Virus record (IMG/VR): IMGVR_UViG_3300037963_000047
Location: 1-20,113 of that record
Source: a virus
Length of the DNA: 20,113 nucleotides
Direction: 5' to 3' (one strand)
Shown: positions 4,454 through 20,113 of the stretch, piece by piece
Layout of the letters: each line of letters begins with the position of its first letter
Position numbering within the stretch: the stretch's first letter is position 1
The notes under the pieces: model-generated
What the model was told of the DNA's origin: nothing
What the model saw: only the letters and a program-made list of their open reading frames with translations
Databases searched by the model: none
Position numbers and translations under genes: made by a program

Positions 4454-5641
4454 TTATTTAGCAGGTATTAAAGTTGGATCTAATGCTATTAATAATAAAT
4501 TTCTATAACTATTCCCAGCAGAATCTTTGATGTTTGCTGCAAAACTTTGTGCAAAATGTATTCTTTCTGATCTAGTTTGTAAATCATCAAACATATAACT
4601 TACTAATGTATCTATTTTATCATTATCTGTTGGGTTAGCTGCATTAAAAGACTCACTAAATTGAGTAGCGTTATATCTATTAATATCAAAATTTTTACCT
4701 TGTATTTTTTCTTTAAATGTAGCAGCTTTATATCCATCTAAAACTTGATCTCCTATATATCCTTGAGTTTGATCAAATAAAACTTTATTTGCAGCTAATG
4801 CTGTAGCTGTTAAATCAGCTTTTTCAGTTCCTTTTATTTTATAATTAGATGCTATCCTTGTCATTACTGCTTTAAATGCATTTCTTTCATTTGCTTTTTC
4901 ACCAAATAATTCTATACCAGCAAATTGCCCACTAGCATCTCTTATAATGCCTTGATTAAATCCTCTATAACCTGCTATAGCTTGGTCTACTTGATTAGGT
5001 GTTCCTAAATCTGTAGTAGATACTAGTGGATCTAAATAATCTCTAACTTGCATGCTAGAGAATGCATCAGATGGCACTGGTCCTTTAGCCATATCTTCAG
5101 TTTTCATTTGCATAGGTTGTTTATTACCAACTAAAGACTCAACTGTGTTATATCCTAACGCACCTATATTATCTATACCTAATTTTTTTAATATAGGATT
5201 ATATTTTTCTTCAAAAGTTTGCGTTCTAGTTTGATATCTTGTATTAAAATCTGTTTCAAATTTAGCATTCTTTAATGCTTCTTCATCTAATTTATTTTCT
5301 TTTAATAATTCTTCTAATTGTTTCATAGTATCATCATTTAAAGTAAATTGAGATGCATCTGCAACATTTGCAAAATTTGTATTATATTTTGATTCTAAAA
5401 GTTTATAATTAGTTTTTCTATTTTTTTCAGCTTCAATAGCATTAGGTATAGTTTCAGATAAAAGAGTATCACCAACTCTTGCTAATACGTTAGCTTTAAG
5501 TGCATCATTAGCTTCTGAGTTTTTTATCTTTGCAGATAAAAGCCCTGTAGTTATACCTGTTACTGCTCTTGATCCTGCAACATCTGCAGCACCCTCTACA
5601 ATACTTTCAGCACCTTTTGCTAATCTATCTAGTATACCCAT
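4454..5641 (-). CDS. Putative internal virion protein of unknown function (395 aa)
   Basis: I do not recognise a named family. The N-terminus (MGILDRLAKGAESIVEGAAD) is a likely amphipathic helix with small residues, followed by an Ala/Gly-rich stretch to about residue 40. Residues about 60-150 are charged and probably helical. The middle contains Gln/Asn/Asp-rich segments, and the C-terminus is mixed (SFAANIKDSAG then LLLIALDPTLIPAK). Its place directly before the giant protein, in a run with no spacing, suggests a partner in the internal core or ejection apparatus, roughly where T7 has gp15. This is positional inference only. The start at 5641 is well supported: AGGAGG at 5654..5649 lies seven bases upstream, and the ATG overlaps the preceding stop as TAATG. 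Confidence 0.65.
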   Translation of the reverse strand: MGILDRLAKGAESIVEGAADVAGSRAVTGITTGLLSAKIKNSEANDALKANVLARVGDTLLSETIPNAIEAEKNRKTNYKLLESKYNTNFANVADASQFTLNDDTMKQLEELLKENKLDEEALKNAKFETDFNTRYQTRTQTFEEKYNPILKKLGIDNIGALGYNTVESLVGNKQPMQMKTEDMAKGPVPSDAFSSMQVRDYLDPLVSTTDLGTPNQVDQAIAGYRGFNQGIIRDASGQFAGIELFGEKANERNAFKAVMTRIASNYKIKGTEKADLTATALAANKVLFDQTQGYIGDQVLDGYKAATFKEKIQGKNFDINRYNATQFSESFNAANPTDNDKIDTLVSYMFDDLQTRSERIHFAQSFAANIKDSAGNSYRNLLLIALDPTLIPAK

Positions 5642-6153
5642 TACTCAGCCTCCTCTTGTTCAGGTTTTGCCATTAAACCTTTCTTTTCTACTTTTTTAAT
5701 ATCTTCTTTTACACCCGATGCAGCCCTCTCAGCTTCTTCAGCATTTACTTTAGTTCTAACAATAGATTGTATATTTTCATTATTAGTTATATCAGACATT
5801 GACATGTTAAATTTTTTAACACCTGCTGCTATACCCATAGTTGCAATCATTTTCATTACTGGTGCTGCAATTAAAAAAGCTAAATCTGGATTCCATTTAC
5901 CTTCCATAAAACCATTAAATAAAATTATTCTACCTAATGCTTCTACAGGTACACCTGCATCTAGCATAGCTAATACTTGTTCTGTAAAAGCTGGTCTATG
6001 TAATCTATCCCATACAAACTCAGTTGCCTCTATAGGGTCTGTATATTGTGGTGGATGTTCCCAAGGATAATTACCAGGATCATCTGTTAAACTTTGACCA
6101 GGAATTGGTGCATCAAATGGATTATCTTCGTTTTCTTTGTATTGATCTATCAT
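5641..6153 (-). CDS. Conserved-looking marine phage virion-associated protein, function unknown (170 aa)
   Basis: The N-terminal third is distinctive, acidic and Pro-rich: NPFDAPIPGQSLTDDPGN followed by YPWEHPPQYTDP at about residues 11-40. I recognise this PIPGQSLT...PWE.PP style from proteins of marine podoviruses and myoviruses, where function is usually not assigned. A helical region follows (residues about 42-87), then a hydrophobic stretch at about 88-113 (LAFLIAAPVMKMIATMGIAAG) that could be membrane-interacting or buried. The C-terminus is a charged helix rich in Lys and Glu ending EQEEAE. It sits between a 112-residue protein and the 395-residue putative internal protein, so it is probably part of the same virion assembly. 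The Shine-Dalgarno sequence is weak. Its start is two bases past the preceding stop. Confidence 0.65.
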   Translation of the reverse strand: MIDQYKENEDNPFDAPIPGQSLTDDPGNYPWEHPPQYTDPIEATEFVWDRLHRPAFTEQVLAMLDAGVPVEALGRIILFNGFMEGKWNPDLAFLIAAPVMKMIATMGIAAGVKKFNMSMSDITNNENIQSIVRTKVNAEEAERAASGVKEDIKKVEKKGLMAKPEQEEAE

Positions 6154-6154
6154 G

Positions 6155-6493
6155 TTATGTTCTTTCTATTCTTTTAATTTTATATGCTTGTGTATAATAT
6201 CTATCAAATCTAGTTTCCCAAAATGCATTTAATGTTTGTGCGTTAACTGCTTTTGCATAGTCTACACTTGCTCTAGAACGAGGAGGTCTAGAATAAGGAA
6301 AATTACTACTAAATCTTACTGGAGACACAGCAGTGTTAATAGGTTGAAATCCAGAATCATCACCTTCTTCTTTTGTCAAAAGTTCTGTTGTTATTTTTCT
6401 ACCTACTTTTTCACCTACTGGCCCACCTACTAAATTACCTACATATCCAGATGCATCTATTACAGCACCCTTAATCCATTTACCTATATCCAT
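6155..6493 (-). CDS. Small protein of the ejection/virion module, function unknown (112 aa)
   Basis: No family is recognised. Residues 1-40 form a Gly/Val-rich probable amphipathic or hydrophobic helix (MDIGKWIKGAVIDASGYVGN followed by LVGGPVGEKVG). A polar linker follows with a Pro/Arg/Ser cluster (SNFPYSRPPRSRASVDYAKA, about residues 63-82). The C-terminus is basic and aromatic (FWETRFDRYYTQAYKIKRIER). The combination of a possible membrane-active N-terminus and basic C-terminus fits a minor virion protein, but nothing in the sequence proves it. An AGGAG lies just upstream of the ATG, in the eight bases that separate the gene from the stop of the 458-residue gene, so this gene has its own ribosome-binding site. 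Confidence 0.55.
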   Translation of the reverse strand: MDIGKWIKGAVIDASGYVGNLVGGPVGEKVGRKITTELLTKEEGDDSGFQPINTAVSPVRFSSNFPYSRPPRSRASVDYAKAVNAQTLNAFWETRFDRYYTQAYKIKRIERT

Positions 6494-6501
6494 TTATTCT
6501 C

Positions 6502-7878
6502 CTATGAGTCGGTTAATAAATCAAAACCAAACTTACCAATCATTTGATACATTGCATCCTTAGATGCTGCATCTTGTAATTCCATTGTAGCAGATCTTTC
6601 TAAAGCTGCTACAGCTAAATTATGATTTCTATTTTGTGCGTTCTCTGAAGAAGTATTTACCCAAGATGCTTCATCTCTCCATTGCTGCCATAGCTGAGAT
6701 AAACCCCAGTTAGAGAGGTTTAATAAGTTTTGTGCATTAACTTGGTTAGCAGCATTTACTGCAGATGTATTAGCAGTATTAACAGCTCTTCTCCATACAA
6801 CGTTTGATTGATCAATTGTTCTTTGATTTGTTACATTAAATTGTTGTCTTTGATTTGCTAATGTTGCATTAAATTGTTCTACTGTTGCCTCTCTCTTAGC
6901 ATTAGCTTCATTAACAGCAATAGTATTTTGTGCATTTAATGCATTAATTTTACTTTTTTCTGCCTCTGCAAATTTTTTCATAGCGTCTAGTCTTGCAGCA
7001 TTTTGATCTGCAACTGTTGTAGCTAGTTTACTATAAAATTGATTTACTTGATTTTGACTTGTAGCATTAAATTGATATGCAGCATTTGCAGCAGCTTGAT
7101 CAGATAACAAGAAAGTTTGTCTTGCATTTATATTTTGTAAATTAGTTTGCTGTCTATTAGATAAATTAGCCATATCCATTTGTAGATATGCTCTTGCATT
7201 TGTAACAGCAGCTTGTTGATTATTAGACAGATTTTGAAATATCATCTGCTTATATGTAGCAGCATCTGCAGCAGCTATTGGTACAGCAGAATTCATAATA
7301 CCTTCAGCTAATGCTTCAGCTGCCATTGAACTAGCACTTAGTCCTCTATTAGCCATTGCAGCTTCAGTAGCTTTTGCAGCACCTCTAGCCCATACTGGTA
7401 AAGGATTACCAGATGCTAATGCTGTTGATACTTCATTTTGTAAACTTTCTAGTTGACCTTTTACAGTAGCTTCTGATGTAATAGCACCTTGTGCAGCAGT
7501 CATAGGAGCAGATACTGTTCCTTGTGCAGCTGTCATTGTAGGTGTTTGTGCAGCAACCTGTGCAGCTGTCATTTGTGCAGCAGTTGCAGCTGTAGGTGCA
7601 GTAACCTGTGTTCCAGTTATTGCTGTAGGTGCAGCAATAGTTGGAGCAGCCACTGTAGTAGGAGGTGTAAAACCAAGCGAACCAGATACACCTGCAGTTC
7701 CTAGTAATTCTTGTGGCCCAACATTTTGTAATTGTGGTGATATAGTTGTACCCGTGGGTAAACTAGGTTGTGTTATTAAACTATCAATTAAACTTACAGC
7801 TTTAGCACTACCTGTCTGCTCTGTTTGAGCAGGTGTTAATGTACCTTTCTGTAAGGATATATCATCTGGTGTTGCCAT
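6502..7878 (-). CDS. Long helical Ala/Gln/Asn-rich virion protein, probable internal/ejection protein (458 aa)
   Basis: Three parts are visible. Residues about 1-71 are polar. Residues about 72-134 are low-complexity Ala/Thr/Pro/Gln with repeated APT and MTAAQ units (MTAAQ at 103, 115 and 126). From about 158 on the protein is almost continuous predicted helix. It starts PLPVWARGAAKATEAAM, then NRGLSASSMAAEAL (about 178-191), DMANLSNRQQTNLQNINARQ (about 235-254), and continues with Gln/Asn/Ala-rich coiled-coil-like sequence to the end. I recognise the ARG...RGLSASSM...DMANLSN style from unassigned structural proteins of marine podoviruses and cyanophages. The helical build and the place ahead of the giant protein suggest an internal core or ejection component similar in role to T7 gp14 or gp15. 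The start overlaps the 41-residue gene stop as TAATG, with GGGGAG close upstream. Confidence 0.7.
   Translation of the reverse strand: MATPDDISLQKGTLTPAQTEQTGSAKAVSLIDSLITQPSLPTGTTISPQLQNVGPQELLGTAGVSGSLGFTPPTTVAAPTIAAPTAITGTQVTAPTAATAAQMTAAQVAAQTPTMTAAQGTVSAPMTAAQGAITSEATVKGQLESLQNEVSTALASGNPLPVWARGAAKATEAAMANRGLSASSMAAEALAEGIMNSAVPIAAADAATYKQMIFQNLSNNQQAAVTNARAYLQMDMANLSNRQQTNLQNINARQTFLLSDQAAANAAYQFNATSQNQVNQFYSKLATTVADQNAARLDAMKKFAEAEKSKINALNAQNTIAVNEANAKREATVEQFNATLANQRQQFNVTNQRTIDQSNVVWRRAVNTANTSAVNAANQVNAQNLLNLSNWGLSQLWQQWRDEASWVNTSSENAQNRNHNLAVAALERSATMELQDAASKDAMYQMIGKFGFDLLTDS
7477..7665 (-). repeat. Low-complexity coding repeat (APT / MTAAQ units) in the 458-aa protein
   Basis: This stretch encodes residues about 72-134 of the helical virion protein and is built from short degenerate units, mainly APT and MTAAQ. 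Three MTAAQ copies lie at residues 103-107, 115-119 and 126-130. The DNA shows matching runs of tgcagc and tgtcat on the plus strand. It is probably a flexible linker between the N-terminal part and the long helical domain. Simple coding repeats like this can expand or contract by slippage. Confidence 0.6.
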
Positions 7879-8003
7879 TATCTCCCCTGTCTATTATATT
7901 TTTTGTATCTACGTTTTTCATCTTTGTTTTTTGATTTTTTGTGTACTCGTGGTCGTTTCTTAGGCTTTGGTCTTTCAACGTATGCCTTAAACTTTTTAGC
8001 CAT
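7878..8003 (-). CDS. Small very basic protein (41 aa), function unknown
   Basis: The 126-base frame starts at ATG 8003..8001, overlapping the TAA of the upstream chaperone-like gene, and ends at TAA 7880..7878, overlapping the ATG of the 458-residue gene. One-base TAATG overlaps at both ends, exactly as elsewhere in the operon, strongly support it as a real gene despite its size. The protein starts MAKKFKAYVERPKPKKRPRV and continues with Lys/Arg-rich sequence ending KKYNRQGR. About half of its residues are Lys or Arg. It has no hydrophobic stretch and no cysteines. A nucleic-acid-binding or capsid-interior role would fit the charge and the neighbourhood, but that is inference. It is easily missed by gene callers with a length cutoff. 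Confidence 0.8.
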   Translation of the reverse strand: MAKKFKAYVERPKPKKRPRVHKKSKNKDEKRRYKKYNRQGR

Positions 8004-8290
8004 TATGGTTTAGTTGGCCACGTAGCGTTTTCACATTTCTCTACAGTATCTTTACCTGCAGGTAAATCTCTTAATTCTTGTCTGTATGTCTTCATGTCGT
8101 CTGATAAAGTATTATCAGATAAAGCCAAGTAATCAGTCTCAGCAAGAAGTCTATTTCTTTTAGCTCTAAGATTAGCTAAAGCTCTAGCAGGGGCTGCGTC
8201 TGCCCACGCTTGTTCTTCAGCATCTCTAGCTGCTTCTTCTTCAGCTGTAAACTGTACTCTGTTACCGTTTATATTATGATATCTTGGCAT
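8003..8290 (-). CDS. Phage tail assembly chaperone-like protein (95 aa)
   Basis: The protein begins MPRYHNINGNRVQFTAEEEA and then carries the pattern RNRLLAETDYLALSD...MKTYRQELRDL (about residues 45-76), ending WPTKP. This matches the style of the phage tail assembly chaperone family (Pfam Phage_tail_APC): a short N-terminal segment naming the residue context, then L.ETD......D.....YRQ.LR.L, and a terminal WP..P. In other phages such small proteins accompany tail fibre genes and probably help fold or attach the fibre. Here it directly follows three paralogous adhesin genes. AAGGAG in the 13-base gap upstream is a good ribosome-binding site and supports the ATG at 8290. It shares the TDW/TDY...R..VR/LR core with the 206-residue gene at 13846-14466. 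Confidence 0.75.
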   Translation of the reverse strand: MPRYHNINGNRVQFTAEEEAARDAEEQAWADAAPARALANLRAKRNRLLAETDYLALSDNTLSDDMKTYRQELRDLPAGKDTVEKCENATWPTKP

Positions 8291-8303
8291 TGTGTTTTTC
8301 TCC

Positions 8304-8921
8304 TTAATTAATTCCGTATAGGCAAATATCTCCAGCGTCTATGTTACCACTATCCATTTTAAACTGAACTGCATCTATAGCACTTGTAGTATTACCATAC
8401 CCAGCAACAAAAGTATTGTAGGTATAATCATTTGCTTCTAAATAATTTACAGTTCCCATATAATGTTTTACAAACGTAGTTGACGATGGATTAAATAAAT
8501 GTAAGTAGCCTCCAGCACTTGAGTCATTGTCATTACCCAAACTTCTAGCAAAAGTTTGAATACCTGTACCTTGAGCTATATCTCCTGAAGTATTATAATT
8601 TAACGCTGTAGCACTGTCAGCTTCATCATGTCTTGCATAAAACATTGAACTAGTTTTTGTAACATTATAATTAGAGCCACCATCTACACTAAAGTTAAAA
8701 GAAAAATGAGCACCATCTCCAGATGGATGAATATCTCTAAACATAAATATGTATTCTTTGTAAGTAGAATCTAAAACAACATCACTAGAACCATCTACAA
8801 AAGACAGTGTGCTACTAGAACTAGCAGTCAACTTTTTAATAAACACCATAGATCCAGTATTTAAAGATCCAAAAGTTGTAACCGATCTAACTGCTCTATC
8901 ATTAAGTGTAACTATGCTCAT
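8304..8921 (-). CDS. Beta-sandwich tail-tip/adhesin candidate, paralogue 3 of 3 (205 aa)
   Basis: This is the last of three adjacent paralogues. It starts MSIVTLNDRAVRSV, has the shared ASSSSTLSFVDGSSDVVLD block (about residues 33-51), DSTYKEYIF with a HPS turn, the NPSSTTFVKH block near residue 145, GYGNTTSAIDAVQFKMDSGN near 175, and ends CLYGIN. The whole sequence is predicted beta-rich, with Ser, Thr, Gly and Asn dominating and no cysteine pairs or enzyme motif. The family is common next to fibre genes in marine phages as far as I recall, and is best seen as a small virion-surface or receptor-contact protein; the exact role is unproven. Its ATG overlaps the stop of paralogue 2 as TAATG, with AAAGGA upstream. 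Confidence 0.7.
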   Translation of the reverse strand: MSIVTLNDRAVRSVTTFGSLNTGSMVFIKKLTASSSSTLSFVDGSSDVVLDSTYKEYIFMFRDIHPSGDGAHFSFNFSVDGGSNYNVTKTSSMFYARHDEADSATALNYNTSGDIAQGTGIQTFARSLGNDNDSSAGGYLHLFNPSSTTFVKHYMGTVNYLEANDYTYNTFVAGYGNTTSAIDAVQFKMDSGNIDAGDICLYGIN

Positions 8922-9541
8922 TATGAATCCTTTATTCCGTAGAGTTTTATAGTACCAGCATCTATGTTACCGCTAGACATTTTAAATTGAATTGCATCAA
9001 TTGCAGATGTCGTATTAAAATATCCAGCATTAAATCTTTGAATTGTATAGTCATCTGAATAATAAAATTGCCCAGTTGAAATAAAATGTTTTACAAACGT
9101 GGTTGATGATGGGTTAAATAAAAATATCTGCCCACTTCCAGATTCATCATTTCCATTACCTATTCCACCAGTTAAATCTTGAAAACCTGTCGACTGTGCT
9201 AAATCAGACGCAGCAGAATATCCAAGAGTACCTGAACCACCACCTTCAGAATGATATGCTTCAAAACTTGTTGTGGTCATGGTTACACCATACGCACTTC
9301 CAGTATTTGTACTACCTTGAAAATCAAAAGTAACATTATTTGTTGCTGGGTGTATATTAATAAATTTAAATAAATAAATAGGATAAGTAGAATCTAACAC
9401 TACATCACTACTACCATCTACAAAAGATAATGTAGAACTACTACTTGCAGTTAAAGTTTTAATATGTGTTAACGCTTTAGCTGCCCCAGGTATAGCTGAG
9501 ATATTTGCAATGCTTCTATTGTTATAAGTTACAATTGACAC
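8921..9541 (-). CDS. Beta-sandwich tail-tip/adhesin candidate, paralogue 2 of 3, GTG start (206 aa)
   Basis: This is the middle paralogue. It shares with paralogue 3 an identical block at about residues 32-53 (LTASSSSTLSF through DVVLDSTY), the NPSSTTFVKH block, and NTTSAIDAIQFKMSSGNIDAG before LYGI. The stretches between these anchors have diverged strongly. The start codon is GTG at 9541..9539. It overlaps the TAG of paralogue 1 as TAGTG, and GGAG lies a few bases upstream. The alignment of its N-terminus (MSIVTYNNRS) with MSIVTLNDRA and MSINVCNDRS of the sisters supports this start. It is rich in Ser, Thr, Gly and aromatic residues, with no enzymatic motif. It probably forms part of a homo- or hetero-oligomeric tip; that is inferred from context. 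Confidence 0.7.
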   Translation of the reverse strand: MSIVTYNNRSIANISAIPGAAKALTHIKTLTASSSSTLSFVDGSSDVVLDSTYPIYLFKFINIHPATNNVTFDFQGSTNTGSAYGVTMTTTSFEAYHSEGGGSGTLGYSAASDLAQSTGFQDLTGGIGNGNDESGSGQIFLFNPSSTTFVKHFISTGQFYYSDDYTIQRFNAGYFNTTSAIDAIQFKMSSGNIDAGTIKLYGIKDS

Positions 9542-10143
9542 TATGAAACTCCATACATTTTAAATGTTCCACTTTCAATTGTGTTTGCAGATACTGAAAA
9601 TTGCACTCCGTCTATAGCTGCTGTGACATTAGCGTATCCAGCAATAAATTCATCTTGATGGTAATCTACATAGTATGTATTAGATGTTCTTGCTATAAAA
9701 TTTTTTACAAATGTGGTGTTAGAGGGGTCAAATAAATGTAATTCTCCACTACAACATTGATCATTATCTGAACCTATAAATATCCCTAATCTTTGTGCTG
9801 AAGTGCTTTGTGCAAGATCACTATCGTCTCTATATGCAAGATAAGTTTCATTATCTGCTTCTGCATGACCAGCTCTAAAAAAAGTTGTTGTCATGGTTGC
9901 ATCATAACTACTGCCACCATCTCTAAAAGCAACCTGCAAATGTTTTCCATCATTTGATGGGTGTACATTAATGTATTTAAATATATATTCTTTATAGGTA
10001 GAATCTATATTACTATCAAAAGTTATTGTAGAATCACTACTAGCTGTTATTGTTTGTAATAACACTAAGCTACTACCAGAGACCCCTGAAGGGAGACTGG
10101 TAATGGATGCCATGGATCTGTCATTGCATACATTGATTGACAT
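9541..10143 (-). CDS. Beta-sandwich tail-tip/adhesin candidate, paralogue 1 of 3 (200 aa)
   Basis: This is the first and most divergent copy of the tandem trio. It keeps the family anchors MSI..NDRS, ITASSDSTITF, DSTYKEYIFKYINVHPS, SDLAQST, LHLFDPSNTTFVKNF, GYANVTAAIDGVQF and a terminal MYGVS. It lacks the VDGSSDVV insertion present in the other two, so the loop between the second and third conserved strands is shorter. It contains a CC pair in the variable middle (DNDQCCSGELHLF, about residues 131-143) that the sisters do not have. An AAAGGA lies upstream of ATG 10143, and the preceding gene ends three bases before it. The role is inferred as for its sisters. Confidence 0.7.
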   Translation of the reverse strand: MSINVCNDRSMASITSLPSGVSGSSLVLLQTITASSDSTITFDSNIDSTYKEYIFKYINVHPSNDGKHLQVAFRDGGSSYDATMTTTFFRAGHAEADNETYLAYRDDSDLAQSTSAQRLGIFIGSDNDQCCSGELHLFDPSNTTFVKNFIARTSNTYYVDYHQDEFIAGYANVTAAIDGVQFSVSANTIESGTFKMYGVS

Positions 10144-10146
10144 CTA

Positions 10147-10464
10147 TTATCCTTTAGGGTTATCGTCTTTAATCTTTTTAATTCTTGCTTTCCATGCGTC
10201 TATATCTTTATAGATCTCATCTAACTGATCTCCTATGTCTCCATAGGCAGCTTTTCTTGTAGCCCTGACTGTATTATTAGATTCTTCAGTATTACCAGCT
10301 GTTTCATACTCTGCTATTTTAGAGTCATCAGGTTTAGTAAAACTATAAGTCCAAGTTTTAATGTAATCTCCCGACCCATCATTTTGTAGGGATACTTTAT
10401 CATCATCCCATGTATCAGAATTATCTTCTATATAAAGTTTTGTTTTTGTAAAAAGTGATGCCAT
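10147..10464 (-). CDS. Small tail-associated protein with YGDIGDQLD motif (105 aa)
   Basis: The N-terminal half is polar and partly beta (MASLFTKTKLYIEDNSDTWD). The C-terminal third carries RKAAYGDIGDQLDEIYKDID followed by AWKARIKKIKDDNPKG (about residues 70-105). The pattern YP.IGDQLD......... W...I..IK...PK is a recurrent motif in small phage proteins near tail fibre genes (XkdW-like and related families), where an assembly or chaperone role is often supposed. I recognise the motif but not a proven function. The gene lies between the C1q-bearing fibre and the adhesin trio, with AGGATAA as a weak ribosome-binding site in the eight-base gap. Confidence 0.6.
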   Translation of the reverse strand: MASLFTKTKLYIEDNSDTWDDDKVSLQNDGSGDYIKTWTYSFTKPDDSKIAEYETAGNTEESNNTVRATRKAAYGDIGDQLDEIYKDIDAWKARIKKIKDDNPKG

Positions 10465-10472
10465 AATTTATC

Positions 10473-11318
10473 CTATTCAATTAGTTTAAATCCTAAAAAA
10501 TGTGTTCCAGCCGCATCAGTAAGTAAATTAACTGTTGTGCCGCCATTTTGTCTTGCGTATACTTCAATATAGTCATTTGCACTTAAATTTAATACTGTAT
10601 TTATTTCGCAGGTTCTATCTCTCTCACCTCTATTATATCCATAAGATATTTCTGAACCATTTTTAAAAAGTTTTATTTGCATTTGTTTGTCTGAGCCACC
10701 TAAATCTGCCATAATGTATTGTGCATGAAAAAAATATTTACCACCTTGTCCAGATGGTACAGTAAATTTGTTTGATGCAAAAGCATTTGCAGTATCCCAT
10801 TGCTCTACATCCCAAGTAATTTTAACATTTGTACTATTAGCAACAGATATATTGGCAGATAAATCTACTTTAAAATTTGGAGTATTTTTACCACCTACCA
10901 AAGATACATCTATTCTTTTAAGAGTGCCAGCATCAGATATCAATAATTCATCAGTGTCATCTGGACTACTAGTTAAAGCTGTTTGCCCTGAGATAACATC
11001 ATTGTTTAATTTAGCAGCGGTCACAGTGTCATCTGAAGGAGCCCCTGTGTTTAAAGTATCTCCCAATAAAGTGATAAAGTCTATAACATCACCTGTAGCT
11101 AAATTACTAGCAAAAGTTATTGTTGAACCAGAGATAGTAAAAGAACTACCTGGTTTTTGTAATATACCATTTAAACTAACCAGCATATGATTAGCATTTT
11201 CTGGTTCTACGTTTGAGCCGCCAACTTGCATAGTATATGCTGCCTGTCCGTTTACTACGGATATAGCATCACAAACTTGAAAGTTTCCGACTGTTGGTTG
11301 TTTTCCTATATAGGGCAT
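10473..11318 (-). CDS. Tail fibre/adhesin with C-terminal C1q/TNF-like jelly roll (281 aa)
   Basis: The N-terminus is MPYIGKQPTVGNF, the short M.YIG..P segment that opens many marine phage fibre proteins and probably docks them to the tail. A beta-rich region follows to about residue 88 (VSLNGILQKPGSSFTISGST, then TGDVIDFITLLG). Residues about 95-145 form a linker with DTVTAAKLNNDVISG and ELLISDAGTLKRIDVS. Residues about 147-281 match the C1q/TNF-like jelly-roll pattern: FKVDLSA near the start, FTVPSGQGGKYFFHAQYIM, IKLFKNGSEISYGYNRGE, LNLSANDYIEVYARQNGG, and a final THFLGFKLIE. C1q-like domains are trimeric binding domains, so this protein is likely a trimeric receptor-binding fibre. AAGGAG precedes the ATG. 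Confidence 0.75.
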   Translation of the reverse strand: MPYIGKQPTVGNFQVCDAISVVNGQAAYTMQVGGSNVEPENANHMLVSLNGILQKPGSSFTISGSTITFASNLATGDVIDFITLLGDTLNTGAPSDDTVTAAKLNNDVISGQTALTSSPDDTDELLISDAGTLKRIDVSLVGGKNTPNFKVDLSANISVANSTNVKITWDVEQWDTANAFASNKFTVPSGQGGKYFFHAQYIMADLGGSDKQMQIKLFKNGSEISYGYNRGERDRTCEINTVLNLSANDYIEVYARQNGGTTVNLLTDAAGTHFLGFKLIE

Positions 11319-11339
11319 ATTTCTCCTTAATTAATTTTA

Positions 11340-12407
11340 TTATCTTGCATTTGTTGGGACACCATTAGAATTTACGAAGGGGGACTCTGCGAAGGCCATG
11401 TAGATGTATGAGCCACCTGATTCGTTTGTTCCTGTACCAGAACCGCTAGTTCCTCCTCTGCATTTAAAACCATTTGAAAGAAAATCTATTGTGTTATAAG
11501 CCGAGTTACTAAATTCTGCATCAGTTCCATCTGCAACCAAAGTATTATCCATAGTATTAAAAGTTTCTCTTTTGTTATCATACATTATCCATTGATCTGT
11601 GCCACTTGTTCTTTTTACCATAAACCAACCAACACGAAATCCTGTGTAAACGAATGTTCCATCTGTACTTCCGTTCCCTGTGTAGCTTCCAAATTTTGAG
11701 TAACCCTTTTTTTCTGCGAAGCAGTAAGCTATATAAGTTGCACTAGAACCATTTAAATCTGATTGAGTTCCAACTGTAAATACTGAACTTGTTGGTGCAG
11801 TTTGATTAAACCAACTTGTGTCTAATCCTGTTGTTTTAGCATTAGCTTGATTCAATTTAATAAATTCACTTCCTACAGTTCCACCTAAAACACTTCCAAA
11901 AGTTATCCAATCAGTTCCATCTGTATCTCTTTTTTTAATTATGATCATTTGTGGTGTAACCCCTAATCCATGACCAACTGTACCTGTGCTACCTGTTCCT
12001 GTATAAGACACAATACTAAATCCAGCAGTAGTATTAACAGATACAGAAGTTGTTATGCTTCCATCAGAGTTTGATGATGCAGAGCCACCAGCAAGCCAAT
12101 TCCAAGCTACTAAACTATCTCCACTTTCATTTACTACATTATCACTTCCTACACTAAACCCATCACTATTAAATGCTGTTACACCACCACTTTGTGTGCT
12201 TTCTCCATCTGTTGAATTTTGTCTTAAAGTTTTTTGCGCCCCTCTAACAGAATCTGTAGCATAATGATTTCTTGCACTACTTCTGTTTTTATTCCACACC
12301 CAATCAGGTTGAAATCCAACACCTGTTATAGATTGAGTTGAACCATTACCCGTATATAGTACAGTATTAAAGTATTGTGCTGGGTCGTCTATACTCGTAT
12401 AAGCCAT
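11340..12407 (-). CDS. Tail adhesin with three internal ~100-residue repeats (355 aa)
   Basis: Three copies of one domain are visible. Copy 1 starts at about residue 17 (LYTGNGSTQSITGVGFQPDW), copy 2 at about 134 (SYTGTGSTGTVGHGLGVTPQ) and copy 3 at about 241 (SYTGNGSTDGTFVYTGFRVG). Each runs YTG.GST......GF.P.W...K, then a polar middle, and closes with a line such as SLVAWNWLAG, TYIAYCFAEKKG or YIYMAFAESPF. The pattern resembles a repeat domain seen in cyanophage and pelagiphage tail proteins (DUF7483-like; the name is from memory). The C-terminus ESPFVNSNGVPTNAR is also typical of these. It is likely a surface-exposed binding protein. No enzyme motif is seen. Its ATG overlaps the preceding stop as TAATG. 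Confidence 0.7.
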   Translation of the reverse strand: MAYTSIDDPAQYFNTVLYTGNGSTQSITGVGFQPDWVWNKNRSSARNHYATDSVRGAQKTLRQNSTDGESTQSGGVTAFNSDGFSVGSDNVVNESGDSLVAWNWLAGGSASSNSDGSITTSVSVNTTAGFSIVSYTGTGSTGTVGHGLGVTPQMIIIKKRDTDGTDWITFGSVLGGTVGSEFIKLNQANAKTTGLDTSWFNQTAPTSSVFTVGTQSDLNGSSATYIAYCFAEKKGYSKFGSYTGNGSTDGTFVYTGFRVGWFMVKRTSGTDQWIMYDNKRETFNTMDNTLVADGTDAEFSNSAYNTIDFLSNGFKCRGGTSGSGTGTNESGGSYIYMAFAESPFVNSNGVPTNAR

Positions 12408-13846
12408 TATCCAAACTCCGCTAGGTTTTTTGAGTTGATTGCATAAAATCCACTAGGGACTGCGTATTCAAAGTTTCCATATCCATTTGCATCTGAGTTA
12501 CCTGATGAGATTGCAAAGGGTGGGGAGCCAAAATTATAACTAACTTGTGCAACACCACTACCACTTATTAAACTTACTACAGGAAAATAAAATCCATTAT
12601 CTATAGATGCTGGATCAGTTATAGCGAAACCATTAGAATTACCAGCAGGATTACCACTATTTTCATAAGTCCCATTTACTGACCAATAAATTCTATTGTT
12701 ATCTAAATCTAATGCAACACCTATTATATCTCCAACAGAAAAACCGCTACCATAAGATGCAGTATCACCACCCTCATTATCAGTATAAACTTTTCCATCA
12801 CCTTGATCAAAGGCAAAATCATCACCACCAAATCCAACTCTATAAGTAGTACCTGTCCCAACAGCTATTCTATTTGTAATTCCTATTCTTAATGGACTGT
12901 CATTTGCACTATCATATTTTACTTCCCAATACCATTTACCTTGTGAAAGACCAAATGTTGCTGTCGTACCTGTCCCAGAACCATTAGAACCACTGTAAGC
13001 TCCTGTTAAATTTCCTTCAGAAAAAGTAAATTGAGAATTTAAGTTATCTAAAGGATTAAACGTTGCATAATTATTAGTCGGTGTATCAGTAGATTGATTG
13101 ATTGCGGCTATATTAGTTTCTGTCCAATCTGTTCCACCACCAGCATCATTTCCTAAATTACTAGAATCTTCAAAATCTAAATAACATCCATTATTACCAA
13201 GAGTTAAACCTGATACATCTTTTGGTTTCCATATTGTTGGACTATCGCTATCAAATTCTCCAAATGATGTTGGATCTAATGCTTGTCCATCTACAAAAAC
13301 AAATTCAGCTATATATCCATCCCAATGTCTTGAACTTGATAGTGGATGTGCACCGATTCTATGTTCTATTGCTGAATTTAAATCTCCTTCGTAATTTTGA
13401 TCTGGATAATTAGATGTATCTAAAGCTGTAATTTGAGCACCATTGACATATAATTTTGCTCTATTTGTATTTGTAGATTGTGCTGAATCATATACAGCTA
13501 CAACATGATACCAAGCAGACGGATCTCTAAAAACTTGTGTTGAAACTATTTGGTGAGTATCTGAATTATCAATTTGAAAAGCTAAAGCTGGATCAGAACT
13601 ACCATCTAAATGAAGTCCAGCATAATCAGAACCAGCACCAAATATTGTTTTTTCTGTATTTGCTGTTAATACATCATCACCTATTTTTAACCAACAACTT
13701 ATAGTAAATTTTTTTCTATCTGTTGGAGTACCTAAAGTTCTTGTAAAACATTGATATCTGTCAGAATATTCTATTCTTACAGAATTATCAACTTCATAAG
13801 CTGGTGTAACTTTAGCACCTGGATATAAAAAACTATTAATAGGCAT
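12407..13846 (-). CDS. Tail adhesin with LamG-like and SPRY domains (479 aa)
   Basis: Two lectin-like folds are joined. Residues about 28-190 show the LamG/concanavalin-like pattern: FTISCWLKIGD (47-57), SAWYHVVAVYDS (110-121), RAKLYVNGAQITALD (129-143) and HWDGYIAEFVFVDGQALDP (174-192). Residues about 290-440 show a SPRY pattern: GKWYWEVKYDS (303-313), IGITNR, then SVGDIIGVALDLDNNRIYWS (370-389) with VNG after it, and FPVVSL (421-426). The C-terminus (NFGSPPFA, then VPSGFYAINSKNLAEFG) is typical of this group of phage adhesins. Both folds bind sugars or proteins in other systems, so a host-surface binding role is likely. GGAGG lies a few bases before the ATG, which overlaps the previous stop as TAATG. 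Confidence 0.8.
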   Translation of the reverse strand: MPINSFLYPGAKVTPAYEVDNSVRIEYSDRYQCFTRTLGTPTDRKKFTISCWLKIGDDVLTANTEKTIFGAGSDYAGLHLDGSSDPALAFQIDNSDTHQIVSTQVFRDPSAWYHVVAVYDSAQSTNTNRAKLYVNGAQITALDTSNYPDQNYEGDLNSAIEHRIGAHPLSSSRHWDGYIAEFVFVDGQALDPTSFGEFDSDSPTIWKPKDVSGLTLGNNGCYLDFEDSSNLGNDAGGGTDWTETNIAAINQSTDTPTNNYATFNPLDNLNSQFTFSEGNLTGAYSGSNGSGTGTTATFGLSQGKWYWEVKYDSANDSPLRIGITNRIAVGTGTTYRVGFGGDDFAFDQGDGKVYTDNEGGDTASYGSGFSVGDIIGVALDLDNNRIYWSVNGTYENSGNPAGNSNGFAITDPASIDNGFYFPVVSLISGSGVAQVSYNFGSPPFAISSGNSDANGYGNFEYAVPSGFYAINSKNLAEFG

Positions 13847-14466
13847 TAACCCTCCAATGTTGGAAGTTCACCTAATGGTCTAGTTACAGATCCATCCTCT
13901 TGTTCTGTATAAGTATATAAAGTTTCTAAAGCTGGTGTGTCTGCAGCATTTGTAATAGCTGTTTCCATCTCTGCTGCTTTAGTTCTTACTGCTGCTCTAT
14001 GGGTTGTAATAGATGATGGTACTGCTGTACCCGCATCTGCTTTTCTAACTATATACCAGTCTGTTTCTTGTAATATTCCTGCAGCCTGTGCTTTTAAGGT
14101 TCTAATTAATACTGTTTTTAGTCCTTCTACTTTTACATCCCCAACTTCTTTATCATCAGGTAAATCACCATCATCTGAATCTTGTTGTGTCCATAAGGTA
14201 TCTGCATGTGCTTTAGCTGTAGCTGTACCCCATGATCTAGTTACTTTACCATTACTAAATGTATATGATTCGTTAGTATTAATATACCACTTTTCATCTT
14301 TATAGTTTGTGCTATCAGTTGTAACTTCATAAAGACCTATAGCTTCTTTTTCTGCTTTAGACCATTTATAAAATATATCTGGAGCATATTGATTTCCATT
14401 ATGTTCAAATCCTTTTGGACCAGGAAAAACTTTAGTTATTGAATTGTCTTCTACTAATGCGTACAT
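13846..14466 (-). CDS. Tail fibre assembly/chaperone-like protein (206 aa)
   Basis: The N-terminus reads MYALVEDNSITKVFPGPKGF and then NGNQYAPDIFYKWSKAEKEA (about residues 23-42), the pattern common to small fibre-assembly proteins in which N..YP..IF..WS..E is conserved. After a variable middle, residues about 118-172 contain LIRTLKAQ, LQETDWYIVRKADAGTAVPS and ITTHRAAVRTKAAEMETAI. This matches the tail assembly chaperone (Phage_tail_APC-like) core of ETDW...R......IP..I...R..VR. The same core, shorter, is in the 95-residue protein at the far end of the adhesin cassette. It likely assists folding or attachment of the adjacent adhesins. No Shine-Dalgarno sequence is visible; the start is one base after the previous stop (TAATATG), which suggests coupling. 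Confidence 0.7.
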   Translation of the reverse strand: MYALVEDNSITKVFPGPKGFEHNGNQYAPDIFYKWSKAEKEAIGLYEVTTDSTNYKDEKWYINTNESYTFSNGKVTRSWGTATAKAHADTLWTQQDSDDGDLPDDKEVGDVKVEGLKTVLIRTLKAQAAGILQETDWYIVRKADAGTAVPSSITTHRAAVRTKAAEMETAITNAADTPALETLYTYTEQEDGSVTRPLGELPTLEG

Positions 14467-14467
14467 A

Positions 14468-14872
14468 TTATGATAATGTTAAATTTTGATTTCTTCCAAC
14501 TTCTAACCATTTAGATCCATTGTATCTAAATACAAATACATCACCTTTAGAAGCTGTTGTTGTTAATGTTGGTGCAGTATCTGCGGCAAATTCAAATACA
14601 GCGTTCCATGTTAAAGTTCTTGAACCTGTCCCATCTTGTATTACAAGTATAGATATAAATTGACCAGTGGTATTATTAGTAGGAGCAGCTAATGTTCTAT
14701 TACCACCTAAAGTTAATTTACAAACATCTTGTGTTGAAGCATCCCAAGTCACTGTAGCCTGATCTGTAAGTGTAGATTCACTATAATTTAATTTAGCAGA
14801 CGTAATTAAATCGTCAGCTATATCTGAAGCTGTGAGTGCCTTTGGTGAAGGAACCTGACCAATATACGCCAT
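14468..14872 (-). CDS. Short tail fibre-like protein with YIG N-terminal motif (134 aa)
   Basis: The N-terminus MAYIGQVPSPKALTASDIAD is the same docking-type M.YIG..P opening as in the 281-residue C1q protein, followed by DDLITSAKLNYSESTLTDQA. The rest is a compact beta domain: VTWDASTQDVCKLTLGGNRT, then GQFISILVIQDGTGSRTLTW, and FVFRYNGSKWLEVGRNQN near the end. The LGGNRTL...G....... Q...GSRTLTW...F pattern is familiar from the tips of many phage and prophage fibres, where it caps the fibre. GGAG about 12 bases upstream of the ATG could serve as ribosome-binding site; the preceding gene ends two bases before. It may be an accessory short fibre or a fibre cap. Receptor specificity cannot be read from sequence. 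Confidence 0.65.
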   Translation of the reverse strand: MAYIGQVPSPKALTASDIADDLITSAKLNYSESTLTDQATVTWDASTQDVCKLTLGGNRTLAAPTNNTTGQFISILVIQDGTGSRTLTWNAVFEFAADTAPTLTTTASKGDVFVFRYNGSKWLEVGRNQNLTLS

Positions 14873-14873
14873 C

Positions 14874-15233
14874 TTACGTAATCTCCATTATTGACAGTGT
14901 GCCCGATATTTTATCTGCAACTGAGCAATCTATTCTTAGTGCATCAGTTGTTTCTAAAATAACCTTACCGCCTGATAAAATTTCAAGTGAACTACCTGCA
15001 GGAATGTTTACATCTTTAACTAAAAATGATGTTCCATTCGTTGCTGCTCTACCACCACCAGATGTATCACTAACTAATTCTACTTCTGCTGTAACTGCAG
15101 AACTGTGTATATTAGCTAATACTAAACCAATTACAACCGTAGTTGTAGAACTTGGTGTTGTATACACTGTGTATGGCGTGCCAGCTGAATTAGGTTCTGC
15201 TGCAAAGGTTACTACCTTAAAAGTATTTGCCAT
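14874..15233 (-). CDS. Small beta-rich tail/virion protein, first gene after the internal promoter (119 aa)
   Basis: The protein is almost entirely predicted beta strand: MANTFKVVTFAAEPNSAGTP, TTTVVIGLVLANIHSSAVTA, SFLVKDVNIPAGSSLEILSG, then GKVILETTDALRIDC. This composition and the AVTAEVEL...VNIPAGSSLEILSGGKVIL pattern are common in small decoration or tail-associated proteins of marine phages. I cannot assign a precise function. The start is very well supported: AGGAGG at 15245..15240 lies six bases before ATG 15233, and a sigma70-type promoter lies just upstream of that in the only real gap of the window. It is therefore the first gene of a likely separate transcript that covers the adhesin cassette. 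Confidence 0.65.
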   Translation of the reverse strand: MANTFKVVTFAAEPNSAGTPYTVYTTPSSTTTVVIGLVLANIHSSAVTAEVELVSDTSGGGRAATNGTSFLVKDVNIPAGSSLEILSGGKVILETTDALRIDCSVADKISGTLSIMEIT

Positions 15234-15292: not shown

Positions 15293-17170
15293 TTATCCAA
15301 GTGCTATAGCTAAAGCTGTAGGATCATCTGTTGTAAATCCTGCACTAGTTAAATATGTTTTAACATCTGATAATGCTACTTGCTTCATAGTCCCATTATC
15401 ATTTGTAACTACTCTATCAGCATCTACTAAAGTTGTAGAACTTGCTGATGTATCACCATCCATGATATTTAATTCTGTGGCTGTAGACGTTACCCCATCT
15501 AAAATATTTAACTCAGCAGCCGTAGATGTTACTCCATCTAGAATGTTTAATTCTGCAGCTGTTGATGTTACACCATCTAAGATATTTATTTCAGCAGCTG
15601 TTGCTGTTACGCCATCTAAAATATTTAATTCATCTGTAGTAACTGTCGCACCATCTAATATTTCTAGTTCTGCTTCTGATATACCTGCAGATCCAATAGT
15701 TACTGTACCTGCAAAAGTTACATTAGCACCACTAAATGTCATAGCAGTTGTAGGTGTAGATCCTGATTTAATTACAAGTTCTCCACTAGAATTTGTTAAA
15801 CTACCAAAAGTTGTACCATCATCTTTAAGTGTGACATCTGCTCCACCTGCATCTAAAACTATATCTGTGGTTGCATCTAGTGTAATACTAGATCCTGAAT
15901 CTATTTCTGTAATTATAGGTGTTGTTAAAGTTTTATTAGTTAGTGTAGCAGTTGAAGATGTTGATACTAATCTAGCATCACCACCAGTACTAGGAAGGGT
16001 TAAAACATTATTAGCACTTTCTGAGTGTGGTGCAGCTACTATTTGTTGACCATGAGAATTATTTTCACAATTAAGTTGAAGAGTACCTTGATTAGTATTA
16101 CCTTTAATAGTTACATGCCCTGTACCATTTGGTGCTAATTCAATATCCGCATTTGATGTAGTAACAATATCTTGACCATTCATATCAAGGTCACCACCTA
16201 ACTGAGGTGTACTATCATCCGCAACATTTGATATTGCAGAAGATGTAGCAAGTCCTGAAACTACTGCTGATCTTGCAATTTTTTTAAGCCCACCACCTGA
16301 AGTATCAACTGCTAAAAATACATCATCATCAGCAACTGTAGATATCTCTGATAACGAGCCTACTGCTATTGAATTAAAGTTTGTACCATCTGCAACTAAT
16401 AAATTACCTGCAGTATTTGTACCCATGGTAATATCATCACCTGATACTGTAAGATCTCCAGAAATAGTTAAGTTTCTAAGTCCAGTTAAGTCTTTATTAG
16501 AATCTACTATTACTGCTTTAGATGCACTTACAGTTCCTGCTGTAATACCATCTACTAAATTTAATTCTGAGGCTGTGGATGTAACACCATCCATAATGTT
16601 TAGTTCTGCTGTTGTAGCAGTTACACCATCCATTATGTTTAGTTCTGCTGTTGTTGCAGTTACACCGTCAAGAATATTAAGTTCTGCTGCAGTTGAGGTT
16701 ACCCCATCTAATATATTAAGTTCTGCTGCTGTAGAAGTTACACCATCTAGTATATTTAGTTCTGCTGCAGTTGATGTAATAAGTGTGCCATCTAAATTAA
16801 TAGCATCAACATTAGCTGTACCATCTATAAATAAATCTTTAAATTCTAAACTTGATGTACCTAAATCTATATCATTATCTGTAATAGGTACAATAGCACC
16901 ATCTTGTATTCTTAACTGTTGTACTGCTGCAGAAGATACTTCTACATAAAATTCTAAATGATTATTACTTGTATCTACAAGTATTTTGTTTAAAGCATCA
17001 GAGTCTCTAAGAGTAGTTACAGGTCCACCATCACCCGCAGTGCCATCATGCGTGTGTCCTGTAGATGCATTAAATGCTGATAATAACTGGTTAAACTCAT
17101 CATTAGAATGAGCTGCAGTTATAGTATCACCTGATGTATATGTTGATTGTCGTGCTGAATAGCCTGCCAT
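15293..17170 (-). CDS. Tail fibre protein with two six-copy arrays of a 13-residue repeat (625 aa)
   Basis: The N-terminal domain opens MAGYSARQSTYTSGDTITAA and continues HSNDEFNQLLSAFNASTGHT, then VDTSNNHLEFYVEVSSAA and DNDIDLGTSSLEFKDLFIDG. This is the typical start of pelagiphage-like and cyanophage-like tail fibres and probably attaches to the tail. Residues 133-210 and 497-574 are two arrays of the unit STAAELNILDGVT, six units each. Between them lies a beta-rich shaft (GGDLDMNGQDIVTTSNADIE, TLTNKTLTTPIITEIDSGS). The C-terminus (DADRVVTNDNGTMKQVALSD) is a short tail and no enzymatic domain is visible. AGGAGG at 17185..17180 and the TAATG overlap with the nozzle gene support the start. 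The protein is likely a trimeric fibre that reaches the host surface, with other adhesins attached or alternative. Confidence 0.8.
   Translation of the reverse strand: MAGYSARQSTYTSGDTITAAHSNDEFNQLLSAFNASTGHTHDGTAGDGGPVTTLRDSDALNKILVDTSNNHLEFYVEVSSAAVQQLRIQDGAIVPITDNDIDLGTSSLEFKDLFIDGTANVDAINLDGTLITSTAAELNILDGVTSTAAELNILDGVTSTAAELNILDGVTATTAELNIMDGVTATTAELNIMDGVTSTASELNLVDGITAGTVSASKAVIVDSNKDLTGLRNLTISGDLTVSGDDITMGTNTAGNLLVADGTNFNSIAVGSLSEISTVADDDVFLAVDTSGGGLKKIARSAVVSGLATSSAISNVADDSTPQLGGDLDMNGQDIVTTSNADIELAPNGTGHVTIKGNTNQGTLQLNCENNSHGQQIVAAPHSESANNVLTLPSTGGDARLVSTSSTATLTNKTLTTPIITEIDSGSSITLDATTDIVLDAGGADVTLKDDGTTFGSLTNSSGELVIKSGSTPTTAMTFSGANVTFAGTVTIGSAGISEAELEILDGATVTTDELNILDGVTATAAEINILDGVTSTAAELNILDGVTSTAAELNILDGVTSTATELNIMDGDTSASSTTLVDADRVVTNDNGTMKQVALSDVKTYLTSAGFTTDDPTALAIALG
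15449..15682 (-). repeat. Coding array B: six 39-bp units (13 residues each)
   Basis: The array encodes residues 497-574 of the tail fibre. The six units in order are ISEAELEILDGAT, VTTDELNILDGVT, ATAAEINILDGVT, STAAELNILDGVT, STAAELNILDGVT and STATELNIMDGDT. The length is exactly 234 bp. The edge units are the most divergent and the central units are near identical, as expected for an array growing by unequal exchange from the middle. Confidence 0.9.
16541..16774 (-). repeat. Coding array A: six 39-bp units (13 residues each)
   Basis: The array encodes residues 133-210 of the tail fibre. The six units are three copies of STAAELNILDGVT, two copies of ATTAELNIMDGVT and one STASELNLVDGIT. The length is exactly 234 bp, the same as array B. 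The two ATTAELNIMDGVT units differ by only a couple of bases in DNA, which suggests a fairly recent duplication. Confidence 0.9.
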
Positions 17171-18720: not shown

Positions 18721-18723
18721 ATA

Positions 18724-20090: not shown

Positions 20091-20113
20091 TTTGTAATAA
20101 ATTTAAAATTTTG

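Follow-up and report, generated by a model that had tools for sequence, protein, structure and literature searches.

Gene content of the block

The window, by which we mean the whole stretch of 20,113 nucleotides that was analysed, holds a block of 11 intact genes that fill positions 8003–15233, with conserved tail genes on both sides. All 11 lie on the minus strand, their ends mostly overlapping or nearly touching. The eight beta-rich adhesin candidates originally predicted in this interval were borne out, and they are accompanied by three small chaperone-like genes. The block genes cannot be attributed to chance, since they recur in dozens of contigs as well as in the isolates HTVC010P, HTVC019P and HTVC034P. 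The features of the block and its edges are as follows.

17170–18720, minus strand: nozzle-like tail protein, backbone marker (88% identity to HTVC033P, 44% to HMO-2011)
15293–17170, minus strand: backbone fibre, upstream edge of the slot; conserved N-terminus (about 135–230 aa), variable shaft
14874–15233, minus strand: small virion structural protein (72–74% identity to 'virion structural protein' of HTVC010P and HTVC034P)
14468–14872, minus strand: small tail-fibre-like protein (PHROG 9017 tail fibre, E=9e-8)
13846–14466, minus strand: second chaperone-like gene (PHROG 4912 tail fibre assembly, weak and partial, E=4e-5)
12407–13846, minus strand: lectin-like adhesin, Laminin-G and SPRY (Laminin_G_3, E=1.5e-16; SPRY, E=2e-9)
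11340–12407, minus strand: DUF7483 adhesin/virion protein (PF24299, E=8e-126)
10473–11318, minus strand: adhesin with putative N-terminal mount and weakly C1q-like C-terminus (PHROG 18673 tail fibre, E=2e-53)
10147–10464, minus strand: YGDIGDQLD small accessory protein, 105 aa, just upstream of T1 (PHROG 9114, E=2.5e-21)
9541–10143, minus strand: T1, gene one of the triplet, 200 aa (PHROG 14820, E=7e-65)
8921–9541, minus strand: T2, gene two of the triplet, 206 aa, GTG start (PHROG 14820, E=5e-87)
8304–8921, minus strand: T3, gene three of the triplet, 205 aa, with position-locked termini (PHROG 14820, E=3e-93)
8003–8290, minus strand: small tail-fibre-assembly/chaperone-like gene, 95 aa (PF16778 Phage_tail_APC, E=3e-13)
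7878–8003, minus strand: very basic 41-aa ORF, downstream edge of the slot, conserved in relatives

Judged by its genes, the source phage is an HMO-2011-type pelagiphage (SAR11 phage), a podovirus: the adaptor and neighbouring tail genes, like the nozzle-like gene, are related to those of HMO-2011 and HTVC033P, and the flanks are co-linear. Pelagiphages infect the most abundant bacteria of the sea and, to our knowledge, next to nothing has been established about their host recognition; in the pelagiphage records examined, receptor-binding genes are mostly entered as 'hypothetical protein'.

The expectation of at least five kinds of adhesin held as regards diversity, but three of the eight candidates form one family and behave as a unit. 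The products of 12407–13846 and 11340–12407 correspond to the N-terminal and C-terminal parts, respectively, of one PHROG 19943 virion structural protein. The N-terminus of the 10473–11318 product (about residues 1–105) shares 80–81% identity with HTVC019P and HTVC034P, where the C-terminus differs, which hints at a conserved mount with an exchangeable, weakly C1q-like C-terminus. The C-terminal profile gave C1QTNF5 as its top, weak PDB match (E=0.06), and one of eight members of this C-terminal family matched PF00386 (C1q, E=2e-4); the window's own domain had no PF00386 match.

A chaperone-like gene had been proposed near each end of the block. The one at 8003–8290 is clear, with 49.7 bits against PF16778 (curated cut-off 26.6) and a relationship to the solved structure 2kz6 (E=6e-7). 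Its homologue stands directly after almost every complete triplet of the type seen in the window and after single-gene alleles, and both Pfam's label and this adjacency suggest that the product is probably a chaperone. The case for 13846–14466 is weaker, being limited to the PHROG 4912 match, and a Pfam profile search gave no significant family. This gene lies upstream of the two genes for the Laminin-G/SPRY and DUF7483 proteins, and its homologue adjoins that of 14468–14872 in four contigs (L071, L072, L040 and L066). Close homology between the two chaperone-like genes was ruled out, as BLASTP found no similarity. The YGDIGDQLD protein predicted in mid-block is a real gene. Its AlphaFold2 (AF2) model (pLDDT 95.8) comprises an XkdW-like N-terminal domain and a helical hairpin; the resemblance is weak both in sequence (PF09636, E=0.015) and in fold (top Foldseek match xkdW, PDB 2hg7, E=0.12, prob 0.96), and it suggests another small accessory protein rather than an adhesin.

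The adhesin slot is exchangeable

Other phages with the same backbone (nozzle 83–95% identical) carry unrelated adhesins in place of the block, the variants being kelch-like, glycine-rich, single-gene, one-triplet and two-triplet. These swaps on a near-identical backbone agree with the proposal of a modular set of adhesin and small chaperone-like genes that can be exchanged, and they are the opposite of a set fixed and co-linear in relatives. On the upstream side of the slot, the N-terminus of the 15293–17170 fibre is 49–59% identical in HTVC033P, HTVC103P and HMO-2011, with the remainder unaligned; on the downstream side, the 7878–8003 ORF is near-identical in L002, L042, L060, L071, L078, L079 and HTVC033P, and DNA identity between the window and HTVC033P resumes at 8004. 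Sequence comparison thus supports the reading of 8003–15233 as a modular slot for adhesins within the tail module of this HMO-2011-type phage.

In HMO-2011, HTVC033P and HTVC103P the slot likewise lies between the fibre gene and a homologue of the gene at 6502–7878 and holds adhesin-like genes, but its gene content is different and the triplet is absent from these three isolates. The HMO-2011 slot contains about 15 short genes in a run, largely annotated as 'putative tail fiber' or 'tail-related', so that the earlier contrast with podoviruses bearing one or two receptor-binding proteins was overstated for this group.

Three paralogues are maintained as a set

T1, T2 and T3 each cover the PHROG 14820 profile (206 positions) almost end to end; the library gives no function for it. 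We surveyed the family among close relatives, using three seeds and the best 80 loci per seed. Exactly three copies were present in 135 of 141 complete arrays and six copies in 2, although more distant members may break this rule of three, given that the seeds were close relatives. The exceptions include three copies plus one extra (L231), a triplet with a broken T1 (L199) and a chimeric contig (L309). The 580-aa ORF of the latter was rejected as a natural fusion, as it is chimeric and joins bacterial DNA to T2, and the survey found no natural T1-T2 or T2-T3 fusion with two full domains. Gene junctions overlap in 87% of cases, mostly by 1 nt, and in the window T1 overlaps T2, and T2 overlaps T3, as stop/start. 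Three copies are kept in at least four backgrounds, namely the HMO-2011-type window, HTVC010P, HTVC019P and HTVC034P. Moreover, all three can be replaced by one distant homologue, which in L071 lies between the YGDI and PF16778 genes; in L312–L316 and the isolate Lederberg a single distant homologue stands before the PF16778 gene.

Predicted fold of the triplet proteins

The AF2 model of T3 is a beta-sandwich (pLDDT 90.9) with an all-beta domain at residues 25–205 and a low-confidence N-terminus (mean pLDDT 47–50 over residues 1–20). A fold search against the PDB returned no match at E<0.001, and the trimer geometry can thus not be taken from a template; the best weak matches, M2AP and galectin-8, are too weak for us to claim a lectin fold. 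Matches in BFVD place T3-like folds in the C-terminal domains of phage tail fibres. For example, the marine phage proteins A0A6J5NEP3 ('Tail fiber protein') and A0A6J7WNA6 (Stf repeat protein) have C-terminal domains with the fold of the T3 model (TM-score about 0.6–0.8). In those fibres the domain is part of a single, often longer chain, whereas the triplet spreads it over three short chains, each with an anchor of its own.

Ends are locked to gene position and heads are mobile

We examined 125 non-redundant triplets for how well each part of the protein predicts gene position (33% expected by chance). Residues 1–60 gave 99% accuracy, the C-terminus 91% and the central head 54%. The position-locked N-terminal stretch spans ~66 residues, and position-informative columns reach residue 60 and recur at 196–203. 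Gene overlap alone was rejected as the source of this signal, since overlaps involve at most about the first five codons. On trees, position changed 6 times for the N-terminus and 47 times for the head, against ~71 after shuffling, i.e., clustering by position is strong for the former and weak for the latter. Pairs taken across positions rise in nucleotide identity from about 0.2–0.7 to 0.8–0.98 near codon 70–80, and most drop again at the gene end. These profiles are those of heads that have moved between positions, with sharp breakpoints, which on the AF2 model fall in the loop after strand 56–66 and in the region before the last strand. The heads of one triplet always differ, with a maximum identity of 0.61. 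Gene conversion within the triplet was rejected, as within-triplet head identity averages 0.46, equal to that between triplets, and never exceeds this maximum.

Anchors of T1, T2 and T3 covary strongly (Mantel r 0.81–0.85, and 0.65–0.75 within one anchor type), while heads do not (r 0.04–0.14), even though they sit between the anchors on the DNA; the correlation of anchor with head is also low (r 0.04–0.26). A lineage-specific duplication maintained through linkage, in which the position signals would record nothing but descent, would fit a module common to related phages, and the first ~5 codons of T2 and T3 can be constrained by overlap. However, linkage would act alike on anchor and head, which behave oppositely in the same genes, and it would not readily keep three copies across the backgrounds listed above; we regard this explanation as very improbable.

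The same observations bear on the suggestion, made in the original prediction, that the block is a store of alternative receptor binders, with virions showing one or some. Heads that differ in each triplet and are traded between phages are compatible with it, as are the varied remaining adhesins of the slot. For the triplet it is nevertheless improbable, because the strict copy number of three (or six), the coupled translation and the co-adapted anchors indicate that all three proteins are needed together; a non-systematic look at the block noticed no invertible or switching element. Fixed copy number and co-adapted anchors point instead to obligate partners of one assembly.

Anchor column 6 is occupied by a small residue in T1, an aromatic one in T2 and Leu or Ile in T3 in 101 of ~104 alignable triplets (Cys, Tyr and Leu in the window), as would be needed if three different chains packed together through residues of complementary size. 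The window proteins end in YGVS (T1), LYGIKDS (T2) and GDICLYGI (T3). The less common SNGTT anchor type (about 20 of 125 triplets) speaks against this reading in that its column 6 does not align cleanly; in it, the C-terminal signatures of the first two genes are exchanged. Such an exchange is hard to reconcile with a serial stack, in which T1 would sit on the fibre, T2 on T1 and T3 on T2, the order being fixed by binding to the previous protein. Although a fixed gene order and position-specific termini would follow from stacking, heads swap between positions while anchors stay put, and stacking through heads would need a head-anchor matching that is at odds with the low anchor-head correlation. 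We consider this arrangement unlikely, to about the same degree as the store.

A candidate heterotrimeric tip

We observed directly that copy number is fixed at three, that the termini are locked to position, that heads are shuffled, that anchors covary and that a single gene can replace the triplet. On this basis we think it probable that 8304–10143 encodes one receptor-binding tip, a 1:1:1 heterotrimer whose heads can be exchanged. From the genes we infer heterotrimer formation, location in the virion, receptor binding and the role of the chaperone. T1, T2 and T3 would be made together through translational coupling and would assemble 1:1:1 by means of three non-equivalent N-terminal anchors together with the domain's first and last strands, so that each chain would show the cell a different beta-sandwich head. 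The PF16778 protein encoded just downstream of the triplet probably helps assembly. We propose that the anchor, rather than the head, determines assembly specificity; heads would therefore be exchangeable across positions, and recombination could bring in a replacement from any triplet position of another phage. As an outcome, receptor specificity may be varied combinatorially over the three chains.

In the main competing model, three separate homotrimeric adhesins would be attached next to each other to a common mount that has a specialised socket for each. Homotrimers are the usual form of phage fibres, such sockets would also yield position-locked, covarying anchors, and the constant difference between the heads of one triplet suits three separate adhesins. 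In addition, a Synechococcus phage homologue of a virophage heterotrimer has been modelled as a homotrimer (PMC12724248). On the other side, the same place holds either one gene or three, and copy number climbs by threes, where sockets would more easily allow two or four; the small/aromatic/aliphatic complementarity of column 6 runs over three chains, and translational overlap suggests equal amounts. We therefore view side-by-side homotrimers as possible but doubtful, and clearly behind the heterotrimeric tip.

Whether several unrelated SAR11 phage groups share such an asymmetric three-chain tip, keeping co-adapted anchors while trading heads across phages and positions, seems to us an evenly balanced question. 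Our search of the open literature returned no report on the triplet genes in pelagiphages, nor any virion proteomics or structure of triplet-bearing phages, and in the literature searched a combinatorial adhesin of this kind is without description for tailed phages. If the heterotrimeric reading is true, three tandem PHROG 14820 genes could be annotated as one tip, the variable heads would be a pointer to receptor determinants, and a change of specificity without breaking assembly would be explained. A further unrelated protein family would also join the very few viral tail heterotrimers known, which would suggest that the passage from a homotrimer to three differentiated chains happens repeatedly.

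Comparison with known three-chain systems

Heterotrimers have been reported before, from a virophage and, in a preprint, from a mycobacteriophage; the rule of three and the split between anchor and head are described here. The tripartite tail of virophage DSLV2 is encoded by three consecutive same-strand paralogues of ~200 aa that cluster by gene position, and its proteins are reported to co-purify as a heterotrimer and to bind Synechococcus LPS (Chu et al. 2025, PMC12724248). The pelagiphage triplet shares this arrangement and also the clustering, strongly for the N-terminus and weakly for the head. The DSLV2 proteins, however, belong to the PF07484 tail-collar family and to a virophage capsid setting beside the minor capsid gene, unlike the triplet; neither 68 triplet members (E 0.01) nor the window genes matched PF07484. 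Head exchange between positions, as seen in the pelagiphage triplet, is not reported in the part of PMC12724248 that was available.

The consecutively numbered tail proteins gp35, gp36 and gp37 of mycobacteriophage Mysterious are reported, from cryo-EM, to form a heterotrimer with beta-sandwich cores and a projecting N-terminal arm (preprint, PMC13252515). This trimer is a siphophage baseplate accessory of one phage, for which neither a copy-number rule nor head exchange is reported in the text consulted, whereas both were seen in the pelagiphage triplet across a surveyed family. A search of the phage collection for T3 homologues gave no mycobacteriophage match at E 1e-5.

Eukaryotic C1q, an A/B/C heterotrimer, has three chains that resemble one another without being identical, and each carries one globular recognition head. 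Its likeness to the triplet is only an analogy of how the two would work, and the 68 triplet family members showed no C1q profile match. A rule of three general to all tandem adhesins in these phages is unsupported, since the other runs are few and include pairs and triples alike. Other tandem adhesin triples were C1q-like in two contigs (L314 and L315) and glycine-rich in a third (L078).

Cassette content of the adhesin slot

The window is a virus fragment of 20,113 bases in which every gene lies on the minus strand. The genes that frame the adhesin block are the following:

18987-20090, minus: adaptor (SU10_adaptor match)
17170-18720, minus: nozzle-like gene, 88% identical to that of Pelagibacter phage HTVC033P and 44% to HMO-2011
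15293-17170, minus: fibre gene with a conserved N-terminus, upstream slot edge by comparison with isolates
7878-8003, minus: extremely basic 41-aa ORF (MAKKFKAYVERPKPKKRPRVHKKSKNKDEKRRYKKYNRQGR), downstream slot edge, conserved in most HMO-2011-type contigs checked

HTVC033P DNA is 82-87% identical to the window across 5636-8004 and 16798-20112, and between 8004 and 16798 nothing aligns except short fibre-gene stretches; at the corresponding place HTVC033P has unrelated genes, among them a putative ferrochelatase and two 2OG-Fe(II) oxygenases. Since the flanks align around an unrelated interior, the adhesin block is, by this comparison, inside a replaceable slot. The basic ORF also has a DNA match in HTVC019P (L086:15545-15670). 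The adaptor carries an additional segment of ~100 aa (roughly residues 89-187), similar to a carbohydrate-binding module (CBM_4_9, E=6e-4, under the curated cut-off), that the HMO-2011 adaptor (238 aa) lacks.

All eleven genes at 8003-15233 were confirmed as real and annotated to the limit of the profile libraries, and the eight adhesin candidates originally proposed were borne out, the other three being small accessory genes. One of these, the YGDIGDQLD gene, shows weak XkdW similarity and a small alpha/beta domain plus helices in a single-chain AlphaFold2 (AF2) model. The products of 12407-13846 (lectin-like) and 11340-12407 (DUF7483) probably function together, because they match opposite ends of one PHROG family of 1,227 positions; in HTVC103P this pairing occurs twice.

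We compared cassette content among contigs sharing the adaptor and nozzle genes, as the original prediction had proposed, and found several kinds of cassette on nozzles 83-95% identical to that of the window. The slot is hypervariable and adhesin-like, and thus not the fixed, co-linear set in relatives that would have spoken against the adhesin reading.

Cassettes on closely related nozzles
L002, L060, L079: kelch-like proteins, about 330-600 aa
L078: three glycine-rich proteins and further genes
L042, L043, L056: 287- and 87-aa genes only
L006: two triplets
L071: the window's set, with the triplet replaced by one gene

L006, whose nozzle shares about 95% identity with that of the window, carries two complete triplets with different anchor types, one with proteins of about 220 aa (9369-11349) and one with proteins of about 205 aa (12546-14388). 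On some backbones, oxygenase-type genes lie beside the adhesins (L078:13565-20569; HTVC033P, L082:12481-14595, annotated as 2OG-Fe(II) oxygenase with the putative ferrochelatase), and these might modify the surface of the virion or of the host.

Copy number of the triplet

Three minus-strand genes, 9541-10143 (T1), 8921-9541 (T2) and 8304-8921 (T3), are paralogues of one another. The block formed by a 10473-11318 homologue, the triplet and the chaperone-like PF16778 gene is largely common to HTVC010P, HTVC019P (Autographiviridae) and HTVC034P, with its order kept, although the small gene that precedes the triplet differs from phage to phage. Viral contigs were searched with three seed alignments and genomes with one, at a strict threshold and with seeds biased toward relatives of the window. 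Exactly three copies were found in 135 of the 141 complete arrays and six contiguous copies in two; the others were L231 (three plus one), L199 (broken first gene, counted as 1 and 2) and the chimeric contig L309. In the first scan, incomplete arrays of fewer than three genes were all near a contig end. Gene junctions overlap in 87% of cases, mostly by one base, and in the first scan a PF16778-type gene stood immediately 3' of nearly all complete window-type triplets.

In L199 (820-1329), triplet gene 1 is apparently broken (169 aa, gap before T2), with T2 and T3 still open and a second, complete triplet on the same contig. L309 (Roseovarius MAG contig JALQUE010000049.1) has typical bacterial genes joined directly to a truncated T2 and looks like an assembly chimera, not a prophage. 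Triplet genes on two SAR11-assigned contigs, L308 (single-cell assembly AG-439-N16) and L310 (Pelagibacter SAG-type assembly), are consistent with infected cells and support SAR11 as host.

A lone distant homologue of 186-207 aa directly precedes the PF16778 gene both in L071 and in the loci related to it (L312-L316). The isolate Lederberg EXVC029P shares this minimal arrangement: its fibre gene is followed by a small virion protein, a C1q-annotated adhesin, the single homologue and a PF16778-type gene. If one gene gave a homotrimer and three genes a heterotrimer, the one-or-three gene count of the unit would be explained. Just upstream of the single-gene tip lies a second tandem run, of three C1q-like paralogues (about 172-186 aa; L314:2295-3908, L315:2292-3908, L312:351-1976), possibly a second three-chain adhesin family.

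Anchors and heads of the triplet proteins

We predicted gene position from nearest neighbours drawn from other triplets (125 non-redundant triplets; a sliding window was also run). Accuracy reached 99% for residues 1-60, within the N-terminal anchor, 91% for the C-terminus and 54% for the central head (chance, 33%). On trees of 50 triplets, the N-terminus changed position 6 times and the head 47 times, shuffled labels giving about 71. Near-identical heads occur on unlike anchors across positions (HTVC034P position 1 and L170 position 2: head 92%, anchor 41%). In such cross-position pairs nucleotide identity rises sharply near codon 70-80 and, in the majority, drops again within the last ~10 codons; on the T3 AF2 model (pLDDT 90.9, first ~20 residues of low confidence) these breakpoints lie in the loop that follows strand 56-66 and ahead of the final strand, 194-204. 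A serial stack of the three proteins is disfavoured, because heads exchange freely.

Mantel correlations between the three genes were 0.81-0.85 for anchors and 0.04-0.14 for heads, and within a single anchor type 0.65-0.75 and about 0, respectively. This covariation is more than linkage alone can account for, because on the DNA the heads separate one anchor from the next. The column that says most about position is residue 6 of T3: in 101 of ~104 alignable triplets, T1 has a small residue there, T2 an aromatic one and T3 Leu/Ile; the minority SNGTT anchor type has no alignment there. The main rival reading, three homotrimers on a single mount with three sockets, accounts for the anchor covariation but leaves both the one-or-three copy rule and this size-complementary column unexplained.

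The most economical reading is that the triplet would form a 1:1:1 heterotrimeric tip, in which translation coupling of T1, T2 and T3 would give equal amounts and differentiated anchors would enforce the correct partners, leaving the heads to vary freely. Heterotrimers from consecutive tail genes are reported for virophage DSLV2 (three genes; PMC12724248) and for mycobacteriophage Mysterious gp35/36/37 (preprint, PMC13252515). If our inference is right, the triplet would function like both; by sequence it belongs outside the DSLV2 tail family (no PF07484 match among 68 triplet members), and mycobacteriophage matches were absent from the T3 homologue search of the phage collection. In the open literature, 'heterotrimeric tail' in the viral sense was found in the DSLV2 paper alone, and the literature searched yielded no description of the anchor/head exchange pattern.

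A ~320-aa fibre adjoining the triplet in L131, L201, L214 and L236 has remote homology to the triplet proteins along part of its length; from this homology, fusions of the head domain to the mount of 10473-11318 homologues may exist as well.
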